A stretch of 42,940 nucleotides of DNA, taken from assembly GCA_030433115.1 (NCBI GenBank), contig JAUILH010000019.1, positions 1 to 42,940 of the forward strand, written 5' to 3'. Under the pieces are notes generated by a model. It was not told where the DNA came from. It made no database searches and saw only the letters and a list, made by a program, of their open reading frames with translations. Source of the DNA: Bacteroidia bacterium. Lineage in GTDB: Bacteria; Bacteroidota; Bacteroidia; Flavobacteriales_D; JAUILH01. Position 1 is the first letter of the stretch, and each line of letters starts with the position of its first letter. Position numbers and translations under genes: made by a program. Shown one piece after another: positions 7,843 to 32,560 of the stretch.

Positions 7843-7937
7843 TGTCCTTATTATTTATTCAAAACTATGCAATTTTCAAGCCACGCGTTGTCCGTCATGC
7901 GACAATAAGTAGCGTATGATTGTTAAAGAATGTTAAG

Positions 7938-21112: not shown

Positions 21113-21165
21113 TGGATTGGTGTTAAAATCTGTTAATTTTTTGGACTTCACACAACATTTTTAAT

Positions 21166-21256
21166 TCTGCTGCGTATATAATAGTAACTATATAGCAGTA
21201 GTTTTTTCATGGTAGTAAGTAGTGAAGTCCCCGCGCAAGTGGGGGCTTTTCTTATA
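21166..21256 (+). ncRNA. Candidate small RNA or attenuator leader before the gene at 21265
   Basis: A possible promoter TTG (21141-21143) - 18 bases - TAATTCTG (21162-21169) precedes a segment that can form CTGC/GCAG plus TATATA/TATATA pairing (21167-21198). A strong terminator follows at 21225-21253. No protein gene lies on this strand for the preceding ~300 bases. The transcript either stands alone or is a leader whose terminator controls the outer-envelope gene starting 12 bases later. Boundaries are approximate. Confidence 0.35.
21225..21253 (+). terminator. Intrinsic terminator with GCAA tetraloop
   Basis: AGTCCCCGC / GTGGGGGCT pair over 9 positions (two G-T wobbles) around a GCAA (GNRA) tetraloop, followed by TTTTCTTAT. 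It lies 12 bases before the GTG start of the downstream gene, an unusual position for a terminator. Confidence 0.75.
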
Positions 21257-21264
21257 TTAGCGTA

Positions 21265-21885
21265 GTGAGTAAATCGATCATCATAAGTTTAATCCTCTGT
21301 TTTTCAGTTAATCACTGCTATTCTCAGGATGACTCCTTGTCCTATTATTTTGATGACAACAATCTGTCTACAGCCAAAAATCTGATAAAATTTAATGCAA
21401 CAGCTGCCCTGGCTGGTGATTTTGGCTTGTCGTATGAGCGTGTGGTATCCGATTTATTATCGTTTGAAGCGGGCTTTTCAATGTGGCAAGGTGGTTTGTT
21501 CTTTTATCCTTCGATAGATTACCCTGGTGACATTCCTGAAGATATGTTGACACCAAGTTTTTTCTTTCAAACCAGATTCTATTACACGTTTCTGGGTCTG
21601 GTTGATGCCCCCAGTGGCTTGTACAATTCATTTATGTATCGCAGAAGGCAAGTGGATTACACATCCGAACCTAGCGCTTACTACGATGAAGTAGTTTCCA
21701 ATGAAGTAATCTATCATGTTGGTTATCAATGGTTGAATGGCGCCAGGTTTGCAATTGATACTTTTGTGGGAATTGGCGTTGGCTTTATGGATTACACGCT
21801 AAAAAATCCTGGATCATCTAATTTCGTTGGGGTTTCCCATGAATTTATGATTAATTTGGGAACAAAATTTGCATATAGATTTTAA
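21265..21885 (+). CDS. Secreted beta-rich outer-envelope protein
   Basis: A 206-residue protein starting at GTG 21265; the start is fixed by the intact signal peptide SKSIIISLILCFSVNHCYSQ. The mature part looks like a small outer-membrane barrel: alternating aromatic strands such as ALAGDFGLSYERVVSDLLSFEAGFSMW, FFQTRFYYTF and FVGIGVGFMDYTL, with a C-terminal MINLGTKFAYRF ending in Phe, as outer-membrane strands often do. No specific family is recognised. The next gene follows after one base, so they form an operon. Expression may depend on read-through of the terminator just upstream. Confidence 0.75.
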   Translation: MSKSIIISLILCFSVNHCYSQDDSLSYYFDDNNLSTAKNLIKFNATAALAGDFGLSYERVVSDLLSFEAGFSMWQGGLFFYPSIDYPGDIPEDMLTPSFFFQTRFYYTFLGLVDAPSGLYNSFMYRRRQVDYTSEPSAYYDEVVSNEVIYHVGYQWLNGARFAIDTFVGIGVGFMDYTLKNPGSSNFVGVSHEFMINLGTKFAYRF

Positions 21886-21886
21886 T

Positions 21887-23461
21887 ATGAAATACATCAT
21901 TCTAGTACTTGGCTTCTTGGGCATTGGATACTTAAACGCTCAGGGAGATACTTCCATTCCGGCAGAACTTACCTGGGGCAATAGCTTCAAAGAGAAAAAA
22001 AGAGCTCAAATGTTGGGCATTGTTGGCAAAACGGAGGATGCTTACTACACGTTAAATTTCACCCGAGGGAAGTACACGCTGAATAAAATGGATAAGGGAT
22101 TATCTCCTCTGGAAAAATACCCTCTTAACATGCAATTTGAAGGCAAGAAAATGAGCTTTGAGGGCATTGCTCAAGTGAACGATCAGTTCTTTTTGCTCAG
22201 TTCATTTTCTAACCAAAAATTGAAGAAGAACTTTTTGTTCGTTCAAAAAATATCTGCTTCAAATCCAACAAATGCCACTCAACTCACTAAAGTAGCGGAA
22301 ATCTCATTTGCTAAAAGGCGATTTACTGGCTCTTTTGGCTATCATGTTTCGGATGACAGTTCAAAAATTTTGATTTACTATGCCCAACCTTATGTGAAAG
22401 ATGGTCCTGAAAAATTTGGTTTCTCTGTTTACGATACTGACCTCAACCTAATCTGGAATAAAGACATTTCGCTGCCATTTAGTGAAGATTTGTTTTCTGT
22501 TAAGGGCTACCGTGTGGCCAATAATGGAGACGTTTACATATCCGGAAGGGAGTTCAAAAACAAACTTAAATCAAAAGACCGAGATGGCAGTCCCAATTAT
22601 GTATACCACATTTTGAGCTACACCGATAATGGTGAACACGTGAAGGACTATGAGATTGATTTGGACGATAAGTTCATAACGGATCTTCAATTTGCACTCG
22701 ACAATGAAAAATCACTACGTTGCGGAGGTTTCTATGGCGAAAATTCAGGCGCCGGTATTAAGGGGACATTTTACATCACCATTGATTTGGAGACCAAACG
22801 TACTATGACGAGTAATTTCAAAGCTTTTCCTGAAGATTTTATTACGCAGGGATGGTCTCAAAGATCCATTAAAAAAGCCAAAAAGAAAGAAGCTAAAAAA
22901 GGGAAAGCCATTGAAATGTACCAGTACGACATGAGAGACTTTATTTTGAAAGATGACGGCGGCATTATTATGTTGGCGGAGCAATACTATGTCCACGTTG
23001 TTACTACCACCACTTATGATGCTCAAGGGCGACCAACTACCCGCACAACCTATCACTATTACTATAATGACATTATTGCGGTGAATATTGATGCCAATGG
23101 CAATATTGAATGGCAAACTAAAATTGACAAATACCAACACTCTACTAACGATGGCGGCTATTTTTCCAGTTTTACTACAGCAGTTGTTGACGACAAAATC
23201 TACATTGTGTATAACGAAAATGCAAGACTATATTATACCAAAGAACAGTTGAAAGCGTTGAGCAGAAAAGAGAAAAAAGCCTACTTCACCCTACTGGTAG
23301 AACTCAACTCGGATGGAGAGTACAAAAAAACACCCTTGTTCAACACGAAGGAAAATGAAGTAGCTACGCGTCCTAAAGCCAGTTTACAAACCGGAGACAG
23401 GGAGCTGGTACTTTATGGGAAGTGGTATAAGAAGCAGCGATTTGCTAAGTTGAGTTTTTGA
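21887..23461 (+). CDS. Secreted protein of unknown function, 524 aa
   Basis: The ATG at 21887, one base after the preceding stop, gives the signal peptide MKYIILVLGFLGIGYLNAQ. The mature protein is beta-rich with recurrent 'observed-value' phrases (FFLLSSFSNQKLKKNFLFVQK, VSDDSSKILIYYAQP, SVYDTDLNLIWNKDISLPF, NNGDVYISGREF), a pattern suggestive of a beta-propeller. A Lys-rich segment (KKAKKKEAKKGK) and a Tyr/Thr-rich stretch (VVTTTTYDAQGRPTTRTTYHYYYND) follow. I do not recognise a Pfam family. It is translationally close to the upstream barrel-like protein, so they may share a surface role. Confidence 0.72.
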   Translation: MKYIILVLGFLGIGYLNAQGDTSIPAELTWGNSFKEKKRAQMLGIVGKTEDAYYTLNFTRGKYTLNKMDKGLSPLEKYPLNMQFEGKKMSFEGIAQVNDQFFLLSSFSNQKLKKNFLFVQKISASNPTNATQLTKVAEISFAKRRFTGSFGYHVSDDSSKILIYYAQPYVKDGPEKFGFSVYDTDLNLIWNKDISLPFSEDLFSVKGYRVANNGDVYISGREFKNKLKSKDRDGSPNYVYHILSYTDNGEHVKDYEIDLDDKFITDLQFALDNEKSLRCGGFYGENSGAGIKGTFYITIDLETKRTMTSNFKAFPEDFITQGWSQRSIKKAKKKEAKKGKAIEMYQYDMRDFILKDDGGIIMLAEQYYVHVVTTTTYDAQGRPTTRTTYHYYYNDIIAVNIDANGNIEWQTKIDKYQHSTNDGGYFSSFTTAVVDDKIYIVYNENARLYYTKEQLKALSRKEKKAYFTLLVELNSDGEYKKTPLFNTKENEVATRPKASLQTGDRELVLYGKWYKKQRFAKLSF

Positions 23462-23486: not shown

Positions 23487-23834
23487 CTAATTTTCAAGGT
23501 ACGATTCTAGCTGACTTTTTAAATCAATCAAATTCCTGGCAAGTTTTTCAAGGTCTTTATTATTATAGGAATCTAAAGTATGTTCAATAGGGTCCTTGAT
23601 TAACTCTCCATTATCATTGGCTGCTCCCTTTAAGGTCAAATTATACCTTATTGTTTGCCATTGATCACTAAGGTCATCCGGAAATGCGCGCTCATCATAT
23701 AATACGGGAAGGAGATCCATTCTGGCCTCATGAAATCTTGACTTGATTGGTCCATGATTGAATGTAAGGGCGTCTTCAAACAACTGAAGTTTTTCTAAGG
23801 TCCAAAAGTATCTGTTAGAGTCAACACTGTTCAT
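23487..23834 (-). CDS. Unknown soluble protein, 115 aa
   Basis: Start taken at ATG 23834 (MNSVDSNRYFWTLEKL); the frame is open upstream to 23891, but that adds an unconvincing N-terminus. It is helical and charged, with FHEARMDLLPVLYDERAFPDDLSDQW and a C-terminal helix DLEKLARNLIDLKSQLESYLEN. It has no export signal and no recognised family. It converges on the preceding plus-strand gene with 25 bases between stops. Confidence 0.6.
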   Translation of the reverse strand: MNSVDSNRYFWTLEKLQLFEDALTFNHGPIKSRFHEARMDLLPVLYDERAFPDDLSDQWQTIRYNLTLKGAANDNGELIKDPIEHTLDSYNNKDLEKLARNLIDLKSQLESYLEN

Positions 23835-23950
23835 TGATATTGTTTTTTGTTTCTTAATAAGATAAGAAATTTGACAACCAAAATCAATCAATAATTATGA
23901 ACATTTGAGGTCGTTTTGATAGTACTTCAATAAAAAAACAGTTCAAACCA

Positions 23951-24024
23951 AGCAGATTTCGTTCACTAGATTTCCCTCTACTTGTTAAAATATGTTAAGC
24001 CTATACTATGGCACGAAATCTGCT
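23951..24024. repeat. 12-bp perfect inverted repeat around a possible promoter
   Basis: AGCAGATTTCGT (23951-23962) and ACGAAATCTGCT (24013-24024) are perfect reverse complements 50 bases apart. Between them lie TTGTTAAAATATGTTAAG (23982-23999) and TACTATGG (24004-24011). The arms could be a regulator's paired operators or an RNA stem. Confidence 0.6.
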
Positions 24025-24134
24025 GTTACTATAATAGATTACATAAAATACCTAGCCAATATCCCACCTGCTAGGTAAACCTAAAGCAGCAACAAGTCAT
24101 AAGTCCCAACGATCCTAGTTGGGACTTTTCTTTT
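24013..24134 (+). ncRNA. Candidate structured small RNA
   Basis: A plus-strand segment of ~120 bases with no protein gene ahead of it, ending in a textbook terminator. It can fold as an outer stem TGCTGTT (24021-24027)/AGCAGCA (24085-24091) enclosing an 8-bp stem TACCTAGC (24049-24056)/GCTAGGTA (24070-24077) with a 13-base loop, then the terminator hairpin. A TTG (23982-23984) -19 bases- TACTATGG weakly resembles a Bacteroidota promoter with a start near 24016. It does not match the SRP RNA or tmRNA cores that I know. The flanking minus-strand genes do not need a terminator in this orientation. Confidence 0.5.
24101..24134 (+). terminator. Perfect intrinsic terminator, plus strand
   Basis: AAGTCCCAAC (24101-24110), 7-base loop GATCCTA, GTTGGGACTT (24118-24127), then TTCTTTT. 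The stem is a perfect 10 bp. On the minus strand it is followed by ATGACTTG, not by Ts, so it serves plus-strand transcription best. Confidence 0.85.
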
Positions 24135-24155: not shown

Positions 24156-25109
24156 CTACTTACGCTTCTTTTTTCGCTTTTTCTTCTTCTTAGTATTGGT
24201 ATCCTCCGCTTTGGAGTTGGTTTCATCATCTCCTTCTTCAACTGACTCTTCTGCCTCCGGAGTGACTTGAGGAAATACTTGCTCATAATAATAGTCTTTA
24301 GACGCTACGTCTCCGCCCAACATCTTAAAAATGTCATTGTAATATGTGTCTAGTTCTTTCTTGATTGCGGCCAGCTCTTCATCGTTTTTTGCTTTAGACG
24401 CTTTATCTTTCAGCTCCAGTATTTTATAATCCTGATGTCTGTATGACCCATATTCTTTTTTATCATTCAATAACTCCTGCACAATAGGGTTATCTAGAGG
24501 CAACTGAACATTGTAAAAAATCTGTTGGTCCAAATCGTCCTTAATAGCATCCAACCCGAACTGAGCTACATAATCTTCACTGGCTTTTTTGAATTCCTGA
24601 TAATGACCATTTTTGTTTAAATACGTCATGTTTTCTCTCCAAATTGTCTTGTCCTGAGGATTGTCGGTCATGGCTTTTAAAGCCACATTCTTTGGTTGCT
24701 GATCTTCTGGTAAGAATGTATCCAGTTCTTTGTTAAAACCATCAAGTGACCTTGAGCCGTAAATGCGCCCTATCTCCTTCCCTTCTCCATCTAAAATCAG
24801 CATGGTTGGGTAACCCTTGATTCCGTAAGGAGAAACTTTCGCTTTGTCCGGACTCTTTTCAAAATCAACCTTCAAGGCTACATAATTTTTGGCTATGCGT
24901 TTACCTACCTCAACATCAGAAAATACGTATTTATCCATTCGCTTACACGGTCCACACCATGTGGTATAGACATCTACAAATAGTTTTTTGTTCTCTTTTT
25001 TAGCCTTAGCCAAAGCCTCATCAAATGTAGAAGACTCAAATTTTATCTGGGAAAAGCCAGAGCTGCTCATTAAAATTCCAAGGGTAATTACTGCAATTCT
25101 TTTTATCAT
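24156..25109 (-). CDS. Thioredoxin-fold secreted protein with basic C-terminal tail
   Basis: A 317-residue protein: signal peptide (MIKRIAVITLGILMSSSGFSQ), then a thioredoxin-like domain (residues ~25-130) with Cys52/Cys55 in WCGPC and the cis-Pro region IKGYPTMLILDGEG. A helical C-terminal region of about 130 residues of unknown function follows. The end is unusual: an acidic stretch (EEGDDETNSKAEDTN) followed by an almost pure Lys/Arg tail (KKKKKRKKKRK). It is probably a periplasmic thiol-disulfide protein. The N-terminal domain resembles the lipoprotein at 7336-7842. It is monocistronic, with a 113-base gap upstream and the candidate small RNA downstream. Confidence 0.85.
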   Translation of the reverse strand: MIKRIAVITLGILMSSSGFSQIKFESSTFDEALAKAKKENKKLFVDVYTTWCGPCKRMDKYVFSDVEVGKRIAKNYVALKVDFEKSPDKAKVSPYGIKGYPTMLILDGEGKEIGRIYGSRSLDGFNKELDTFLPEDQQPKNVALKAMTDNPQDKTIWRENMTYLNKNGHYQEFKKASEDYVAQFGLDAIKDDLDQQIFYNVQLPLDNPIVQELLNDKKEYGSYRHQDYKILELKDKASKAKNDEELAAIKKELDTYYNDIFKMLGGDVASKDYYYEQVFPQVTPEAEESVEEGDDETNSKAEDTNTKKKKKRKKKRK

Positions 25110-31010: not shown

Positions 31011-32210
31011 TTACAAGTTAACAGTTTGATCCATAAATTGTATTTTTTCTATACCATTCAACGTATTTACCCCATCTCTATTGGATATATTGTCAGTTAC
31101 AGTAGTCACCCCATTATTTGTGTTTACTGTATATTCTGAATATACTCCTGAAAAAATAACCGTATTTGTTCCTGAGTTTCCAGTTAGATTATTGTCTAAA
31201 TTATTTACTTTTAGATTTGTGTTATTTGAACCTGTTAGAGTAACGTCTTTTATATATTGAGATTTTAGAGTATAGGACTGAAAAGCATCCAATGACAGGC
31301 TAAAAGTGCCAGTAAACGAATTATCTAATTGAATATTCCAGTTTAGGTATGGCAAATGGAATTTTTCTACTAGTCCATATCCAGTTGGGTCAATAGATTG
31401 AAGATTTGCACGTGTAGTTGGTGTATATTCCCCATAAAAAGAGCTTCCGGAAGTTGAATGTGCCCAAAAGCCAAAATAAACATCAAAGGCACTGATAATG
31501 TATTCAAATCGACTAACCTCAACATCACCTCCGTAATTGTAGATACCAACCGCAGAAGCGGCTTGTTCTCCTTGTTTGATTTCGTTGTCATATGCAGGTA
31601 GGGCCTCTACAATACCATAATTGTGAACCATGTGAAATATCTCTTCATAACTAGCATCCCTTACGCTATTGTTAATGTATGATGCCGACCCTTCTACCGG
31701 AGATTCATTTGCGTAAAGATCTTGTATTCCTAATCCGAGATCTGACACTTGATCTCTGTAATCCATTGCTTGCTGCTCATTATCAAAATAGATAAGAGTT
31801 GCCTTATTGTCCGACATTTTATTTGCAATTGCAGATTTGTCAGATCCATATTGAGTTCCTTGTGCACTGCGCAAAATGTACTCTAGTATGTTTCGTGCTC
31901 TGACTATTTGTTTTACCTCCACACCAGAGGTAGCAAAAATATGAATTGGTTTACCATTAGGAGCTACCACTTTTGTGTAATTAGAAAATACTGTCGATAA
32001 AGGTTCGGGCAAATCATGAGGAACTTGCACTACTCCATTCGAAGAAGATGAAATATCTATATTATCCAATTTTTCTAATGAAACTGGATTCTTATCTTTT
32101 TTACATGACGTTAAAAAGAAGAAACACACTATAAATAGAACCAAAATAGCTTTGATGTTTTTCGTTTTTATTAGATATAATTTAACATTATCTATAAATA
32201 GAGTGTTCAT
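31011..32210 (-). CDS. Lipoprotein with RTX-type C-terminal module
   Basis: Start taken at ATG 32210, which puts the lipobox Cys at residue 36 (VCFFFLTSC); an ATG at 32240 is also possible, and the GTG at 32285 inside the palindrome is unlikely. The central region is unfamiliar and contains YEEIFHMVHNYGIVEALPAYDNE. The last ~65 residues (NNLTGNSGTNTVIFSGVYSEYTV, VTDNISNRDGVNTLNGIEKIQFMDQTVNL) follow closely the terminal module common in RTX/serralysin-like secreted proteins (G..N.D..vFsG...dYt...dn..RDG.dtL.giE...F.D.t). The gene is visibly more A+T-rich than its surroundings, and a perfect 52-bp palindrome lies upstream. Function is unknown. Confidence 0.72.
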   Translation of the reverse strand: MNTLFIDNVKLYLIKTKNIKAILVLFIVCFFFLTSCKKDKNPVSLEKLDNIDISSSSNGVVQVPHDLPEPLSTVFSNYTKVVAPNGKPIHIFATSGVEVKQIVRARNILEYILRSAQGTQYGSDKSAIANKMSDNKATLIYFDNEQQAMDYRDQVSDLGLGIQDLYANESPVEGSASYINNSVRDASYEEIFHMVHNYGIVEALPAYDNEIKQGEQAASAVGIYNYGGDVEVSRFEYIISAFDVYFGFWAHSTSGSSFYGEYTPTTRANLQSIDPTGYGLVEKFHLPYLNWNIQLDNSFTGTFSLSLDAFQSYTLKSQYIKDVTLTGSNNTNLKVNNLDNNLTGNSGTNTVIFSGVYSEYTVNTNNGVTTVTDNISNRDGVNTLNGIEKIQFMDQTVNL

Positions 32211-32277
32211 ATATTTTATATTTAAGTTTAACTCTTCCATTACTTTTATTTTGTAGCTACTTAATATTGAGTCAAAA

Positions 32278-32329
32278 AAAAGCACATACTTCAGTTGCCA
32301 TAATTATGGCAACTGAAGTATGTGCTTTT
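32278..32329. repeat. Perfect 52-bp palindrome
   Basis: Arms of 26 bp with no loop, beginning AAAAGCACATACTTCAGTTG, centred on AATT at 32302-32305. On the minus strand the right end continues into seven Ts, so it could terminate leftward transcription, but no minus-strand gene precedes it. It lies ~70 bases before the start of the RTX-type lipoprotein. Confidence 0.9.
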
Positions 32330-32394
32330 GGACACAAAACTAAAATTACTGTACCTCCAATTCCTTCTTCAGTGATAAGGCACAATAATATCAC

Positions 32395-32423
32395 TTTAGT
32401 AATCTTATAGCAAGATTACTAAA
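32395..32423. repeat. 12-bp perfect hairpin
   Basis: TTTAGTAATCTT (32395-32406), loop ATAGC, AAGATTACTAAA (32412-32423). On the plus strand it is followed by ATATTTTCTTAT, a weak T-rich tail. It sits between the 52-bp palindrome and the MarR gene's operator. Confidence 0.75.
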
Positions 32424-32515
32424 ATATTTTCTTATATACATTATATCTAACTCATTTTTATCGGTACTTGACACATATCACTGTGTTTTTTTATGAAAGC
32501 ATTTTTTATACTTGA

Positions 32516-32551
32516 TCATAAAATTAGTTTGAATTCAAACTAATTTTATGA
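32516..32551. promoter_or_regulatory. Perfect 36-bp palindrome, likely MarR operator
   Basis: Left half TCATAAAATTAGTTTGAA, right half its exact complement, centred on GAATTC; it ends 9 bases before the MarR ATG. The inner TTAGTTTGAATTCAAACTAA has the form of MarR-family operators. TTTG (32528-32531) and TGACTTTG (32549-32556) with a 17-base gap may be the promoter, which the bound repressor would cover. The start would then fall at or near the ATG. Confidence 0.7.
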
Positions 32552-32560
32552 CTTTGTACA

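Follow-up and report, generated by a model that had tools for sequence, protein, structure and literature searches.

Transcription attenuators and leader RNAs are a kind of regulatory RNA. Small RNAs of the Bacteroidota are also described: the available text of PMC7366714 gives 49 high-confidence intergenic terminated sRNAs for B. thetaiotaomicron, of which 27 are strain-specific, so that an sRNA confined to one lineage would be ordinary, and that of PMC11697453 presents FopS (RF04319) as 14 paralogous sRNAs. PM2 is named, in the portion of the literature at hand, as a second promoter motif of B. thetaiotaomicron. In the limited literature searched, no paper was found on TTAACA/TGTTAA sites or on terminated sRNAs in Flavobacteriales. 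Here, we analyse E1, a candidate small-RNA element at 23951-24134 of a 42,940-nt stretch of DNA from a Bacteroidia bacterium (the window), together with E2, a second element in the same window. Our leading reading, in which we place about even confidence, is that E1 is an intrinsically terminated small-RNA gene restricted to its lineage, a sibling of E2 that acts in trans; we infer its transcription, its start site, its action in trans and its common origin with E2. E1 contains the following features.

23951-23962 and 24013-24024, no strand assigned: 12-bp perfect inverted repeat, AGCAGATTTCGT / ACGAAATCTGCT (direct reading, repeat search)
23983-23998, plus strand: direct repeat TGTTAA-N4-TGTTAA, common to E2, a presumed promoter or regulator element
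24019-24037, plus strand: TCTGCTG-N4-TATAATAG, identical in E2
24021-24027 and 24085-24091, plus strand: outer stem, TGCTGTT / AGCAGCA, with one G-U pair; excludes the 12-bp repeat
24049-24056 and 24070-24077, plus strand: inner stem of 8 bp, TACCTAGC / GCTAGGTA, with the 13-nt loop CAATATCCCACCT
24101-24127, plus strand: intrinsic terminator, a 10-bp stem AAGTCCCAAC-N7-GTTGGGACTT followed by TTCTTTT, with the T-run reaching 24134

Direct reading and a recheck bear out the preliminary description of a 10-bp plus-strand terminator with only minus-strand genes beside it, and direct reading and the repeat search place the outer and inner stems where it had put them. Its picture of three nested stems holds in part: the outer and inner stems do nest, but the 12-bp repeat and the outer stem both need 24021-24024 and are therefore mutually exclusive in one molecule. 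In folding from 23950 onward the 12-bp repeat forms, whereas in an RNA starting after the repeat the outer stem forms. The repeat around the start of E1 may be either a DNA-level operator or a stem in RNAs that start further upstream. As a pair of arms it occurs once in the genome, and no second arm lies within 160 nt at any of the 21 near-matching sites outside E1. The idea that the arms belong to a dispersed repeat was rejected (23 sites at up to one mismatch versus 33 for the reversed control), and what resembles another copy, in L119, reads as the end of a coding frame.

The fold of E1 goes beyond chance. The MFE z is -5.7 for 23950-24134 and -5.3 for 24012-24134, with 0/200 shuffles as good in both cases. 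When the terminator is left out, the fold of 24012-24098 is less striking (z -2.9; 2/200 shuffles), and 23950-24098 has a z of -4.3 (0/200). The nested outer and inner geometry is reached by none of 5000 dinucleotide shuffles, under a criterion fixed after the stems were seen, a version without G-U pairs having missed them; the inner stem alone is found in 61/5000 shuffles and the 12-bp inverted repeat in 8/5000. Ranked by a coarse 25-shuffle z against the other members of a set of 724 distinct intergenic windows of 123 nt, taken from both strands of 412 kb, E1 is fifth; its fold is unusual, not unique, and four others have a lower coarse z. Chance could also have put together a terminator-like hairpin and further stems in intergenic DNA rich in A+T. 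This would accommodate the several other intergenic windows that fold equally well or better, as well as a promoter score at chance level, but the shuffle controls on fold, repeat and nested stems speak against it, and we regard it as highly improbable.

E2 was found through a match at 21159-21255 (26.7 bits) to R1, a single-sequence covariance model of E1 that starts at 24012; this score is below those of the terminator matches in other genomes, and E2 is unlisted in a lax R1 search of its own genome. Its features are as follows.

About 21121-21264, plus strand: E2, ~2.9 kb from E1 and directly before the plus-strand operon 21265-23461
21121-21136, plus strand: TGTTAA-N4-TGTTAA
21143-21151 and 21222-21230, plus strand: antiterminator-like 9-bp stem, GGACTTCAC / GTGAAGTCC
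21166-21184, plus strand: TCTGCTG-N4-TATAATAG
21225-21255, plus strand: terminator, with stem 21225-21234 / 21239-21248 and two G-U pairs

The stem of the E2 terminator ends 16 nt before the GTG at 21265, where a 206-aa gene opens the two-gene operon 21265-23461; hence a message of the operon must cross this terminator or start within it. The pairing of GGACTTCAC with GTGAAGTCC is perfect, and GTGAAGTCC takes in the first bases of the 5' arm of the terminator. A competing stem as good occurs in 7/5000 shuffles; truncated E2 folds into this stem (z -5.5), and full E2 folds into the terminator. With a terminator before a gene and a mutually exclusive upstream stem, E2 has in its sequence what defines an attenuator, and we describe it as an attenuator-like leader whose regulated read-through is a prediction. 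By comparison, E1 has no significant competing stem: four perfect pairs are found, equalled by 994/1000 shuffles. Since it has neither a competing stem nor a gene behind it, every E1 transcript would be expected to terminate as a free RNA, and E1 resembles a free version of E2 in which termination is constant.

The relation between the two elements is suggestive, not proven. Both carry TGTTAAAATnTGTTAA and TCTGCTG-N4-TATAATAG, in the same order, and a plus-strand terminator; because R1 starts at 24012, the upstream TGTTAAAATnTGTTAA is independent of the R1 match to E2. TCTGCTG-N4-TATAATAG occurs exactly at E1 and E2 only in the 4.38-Mb genome, all 11 sites with one or two mismatches lie inside open frames of at least 197 codons, and at up to three mismatches there is little enrichment (151 sites versus 137 in the control). 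An alignment of the whole regions with their terminators is matched by 4/2000 shuffles, with 3/221 other intergenic comparisons scoring higher; without the terminators, 92/2000 shuffles match it and E2 falls outside the eight best of 222. In a two-block test E2 is second of 156, and the first is the region before a gene that, from its translation, we take to be dxr-like. The energy of an E1-E2 duplex is unremarkable (-35.6 versus -32.6, sd 4.5).

These common blocks also permit two readings in which E1 derives from a leader. E1 could be a decayed or orphaned attenuator leader, functionless after the loss of the gene that it controlled. The blocks in common with attenuator-like E2 and the missing gene behind E1 fit such an origin; decay would be expected to destroy the stems and the terminator, yet both are intact in E1, and we find this account very doubtful. 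Alternatively, E1 could be a copy of the E2 leader, now detached and without its gene and switch, that acts in trans on E2 and the operon behind it, one possibility being that it serves as a decoy for the factor that sets the choice between terminator and antiterminator in E2. This would make E1 a riboregulator born from duplication of an attenuator, a scenario that we judge quite improbable.

The reading of E1 as a small-RNA gene calls for a promoter, and the preliminary description had placed one within the 12-bp repeat. The repeat is present, but shuffled DNA scores as well as the presumed promoter, whose consensus score of 7 of 9 is equalled by 240/500 shuffles and attained by 60/69 real upstream regions, so that the test has little power either way. 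Exact copies of TGTTAA-N4-TGTTAA number 12 genome-wide, and the window holds 3 of these (7921-7936, 21121-21136 and 23983-23998, all plus strand). Of the 12, 11 are either intergenic by the gene predictions or no further than 30 nt from the edge of a gene. When one mismatch is tolerated, the motif is not enriched (54 sites versus 71 for the reversed control). It is possibly a regulator's site or a promoter element. The region before the dxr-like gene (L117:17820-17973, minus strand) has ACAGTTCAAA and TGTTAAAAAAAGTTAAGCCT, like the region upstream of E1, and its TGTTAAAAAAAGTTAAGCCT block has the same orientation as that of E1, with 46 nt from the repeat to the ATG. The presence of the block before E1, E2 and the dxr-like gene provides modest evidence, at the level of sequence, for a real plus-strand promoter region of E1. 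Separately, overlapping near-copies of the direct repeat with a 10-bp period are seen on contigs C146 and C184.

Both genes flanking E1 lie on the minus strand, 23487-23855 (or to 23891) and the thioredoxin-like 24156-25109. The closest plus-strand gene stops at 23461, 640 nt ahead of the E1 terminator, with a minus-strand gene between them. A strict script finds 25 strong terminators in 412 kb, of which 16 come after a same-strand gene, 5 are inside predicted genes and 4, E1 included, have no same-strand protein gene ahead; one of the other three comes after tRNA-Ser, i.e. an RNA gene. The script tolerates one G-U pair and rests on crude gene calls, and it misses the E2 terminator with its two G-U pairs, so these counts are lower bounds. 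For the 16 terminators, the distance from the stop codon has a median of 25 nt, and 80% fall within 16.5-68.5 nt. E1 therefore has an intrinsic terminator without a same-strand gene ahead. The unit had been called an orphan, which is right in that no plus-strand gene adjoins it; the stretch from the operon's last stop at 23461 to the E1 terminator at 24101 yielded no other terminator, however, which makes read-through from the operon 21265-23461 possible.

Such read-through underlies a further explanation, in which the operon 21265-23461 has a displaced 3' end: its transcript would cross the minus-strand gene 23487-23855 and stop at the E1 terminator, and any small RNA would be cut from the 3' end of that transcript. 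Besides the lack of an intervening terminator, the intervening gene itself is in keeping with displacement. Its product (122 aa) matches nothing in Pfam or NCBIfam and lacks a relative in 149 other genomes of the order. The gene itself, which converges with the operon at a distance of 26 nt, also has no relative in 29 loci that carry relatives of the second operon gene; it may thus be a late insertion. The longer RNA, in which the 12-bp repeat forms a stem, also has a very good fold. Against this, 640 nt far exceeds the usual distance from stop to terminator; among the 29 loci of relatives, 3 have a terminator within 50 nt of the stop by the script and none has the arrangement seen here; and the TGTTAA block common to E2 and the dxr-like gene would be left unexplained. 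We consider a displaced 3' end unlikely, though worth weighing.

Opposite transcription is the other possibility raised by the neighbouring genes: the hairpins could be a minus-strand 3' UTR that ends and protects the thioredoxin-like message of 24156-25109, their plus orientation being incidental or the terminator bidirectional. The 10-bp hairpin is indeed 28 nt past the stop of this gene, a usual terminator distance, and the minus-strand RNA folds well too (z -3.8), its inner hairpin having TATTTTAT after it. The T-run, by comparison, is on the plus side, whereas the minus side has ATGACTTG after the hairpin, and the z of -3.8 for the minus strand compares with -5.3 for the same stretch on the plus strand. 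On balance, a minus-strand 3' UTR appears improbable. Elsewhere in the window, a 16-bp hairpin with its T-run on the minus strand (32285-32322, minus) is located at the start of the minus-strand ORF 31011-32285, and the intergenic region 32286-32560 holds two more perfect inverted repeats, at 32395-32423 and 32516-32551.

No known RNA family accounts for E1. None of the Rfam 15 covariance models matches the window at the gathering score; with the limit relaxed to E 10, E1 obtains matches at chance level only, namely MicC (18.8 bits versus 90), mir-981 and RAGATH-27. Novelty, which a match to a known family would have ended, is thus left standing by the Rfam scan, and the kinship with 6S-type or Flavo-1 RNAs entertained beforehand is negative by covariance model: Flavo-1 (RF01705) does not match E1 in the Rfam 15 scans, nor does 6S-Flavo (RF01685, gathering 85 bits), even at E up to 10. 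6S-Flavo likewise has no match at E up to 10 in the genome of E1 itself and reaches its cut-off in 0/100 genomes of the order, indicating that the 6S RNA of this order may be divergent and unrecognised and that this test says little about 6S function. Like 6S-Flavo as described in the available text of PMC2864571, E1 has a closing stem and an internal loop that is asymmetric; unlike 6S-Flavo, its inner stem is just 8 bp long and an intrinsic terminator comes after it. In another genome of the order (G059), L065:1478-1653 scores 41.4 bits with 6S-Flavo (cut-off 85) and 27.3 bits with Bacteroidales-1 (cut-off 60), and is likely a divergent 6S RNA, Bacteroidales-1 being itself a suggested 6S. The proposal that E1 is a 6S RNA of this type was dropped, as the 8-bp inner stem and terminator of E1 differ from the G059 element. 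FopS (gathering 56 bits) does not match E1 at E up to 10, and E2 scores 17.8 bits with it (E 2.2), at chance level.

Relatives were sought across the order, the search for related genomes having returned none of the same family as E1. By blastn, E1 matches only itself in 60 genomes including its own; phage DNA gives only matches with E 0.3 to query bases 2-54, outside E1, plasmids give no DNA match to E1, and viral contigs give no match for one exact pattern. R1 and R2, the latter a model without the terminator, were scanned against 399 genomes, including that of E1, with stricter filters at which weak matches are lost. The 8 R1 matches in the 398 other genomes are all mainly a terminator-type hairpin with a T-run and are not homologues, although one of them (L062) fits the inner stem too. 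With an E limit of 1, R2 has matches in 27 other genomes; the best is 0.03 per genome over 398, and they were set aside as chance. No homologue of E1 was thus found by R1 or R2 in these 398 genomes. The best relative of the thioredoxin-like neighbour is 36% identical over most of the protein. Synteny, proposed beforehand as a check, lends no support: seven window proteins compared with 29 thioredoxin-like loci, and eight with 16 loci, show no shared neighbour, and viral contigs show none.

Taken as a small-RNA gene, E1 would work as follows. The promoter region with TGTTAA-N4-TGTTAA (23983-23998) would drive a plus-strand transcript of roughly 90-130 nt, which would start between ~24005 and ~24042 and end at the terminator (24101-24134); the start would be ~24005 if the RNA begins just past the TGTTAA block, and ~24042 if TATAAT is the -10 box. 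An RNA starting near 24005 would contain the outer stem, the inner hairpin (8 bp, its C-rich loop CAAUAUCCCACCU left open) and the terminator, and would most likely pair in trans through the C-rich loop or the A/U-rich internal loop. Its sibling E2, as leader of the operon 21265-23461, would switch between the terminator and the competing 9-bp stem. Neither ATG nor GTG is present within 24012-24134. A 28-codon frame (23992-24078) would be available if transcription starts further up, and the 28-aa product has no Pfam match and no plasmid match; a leader peptide MARNLLLL (ATG 24008) was dropped, E2 having no ATG in a matching frame. As for targets, AGGTGGGAT, the complement of the E1 loop, lies 28 nt before the start of a presumably queD-like gene, the best of 307 start regions. 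We rejected this site as a target: apart from E1, 412 kb contain the 9-mer three times, and a single such occurrence near a start is about what chance would give.

As a whole, the case for E1 as the window's best candidate for an undescribed small RNA stands with respect to its class, a small-RNA gene being the best reading and Rfam 15 leaving it unmatched, but not with respect to a demonstrable promoter between the repeat arms or to the simultaneous formation of all stems, which the analysis does not support. If expressed, E1 would be an Rfam-unmatched sRNA of a lineage without a close relative among the genomes searched, and E1 and E2 may show a leader and a free sRNA of common origin within 3 kb. 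The pair would then offer a concrete test of how RNAs that act in trans evolve from leaders that act in cis. Without expression, E1 would be a stray terminator of an ordinary sort. What deserves specialist attention is that E1 is paired with an attenuator-like sibling.

By comparison with attenuators, E2 has the expected arrangement, a terminator 16 nt before the start codon and a competing upstream stem, whereas E1 differs from them in having no gene behind it. The sibling RNAs sharing a sequence block that we propose for E1 and E2 resemble FopS as described in the available text of PMC11697453, which differs in that E2 precedes a gene. Closest are the GibS-type Rho-independently terminated sRNAs of the Bacteroidota: as far as the available text of PMC7366714 goes, E1 differs from GibS in being known from sequence alone, with a predicted start site, and is like these RNAs in its intergenic position and its own terminator. 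E1 is thus a plausible addition to the common Bacteroidota class of terminator-ended intergenic sRNAs.
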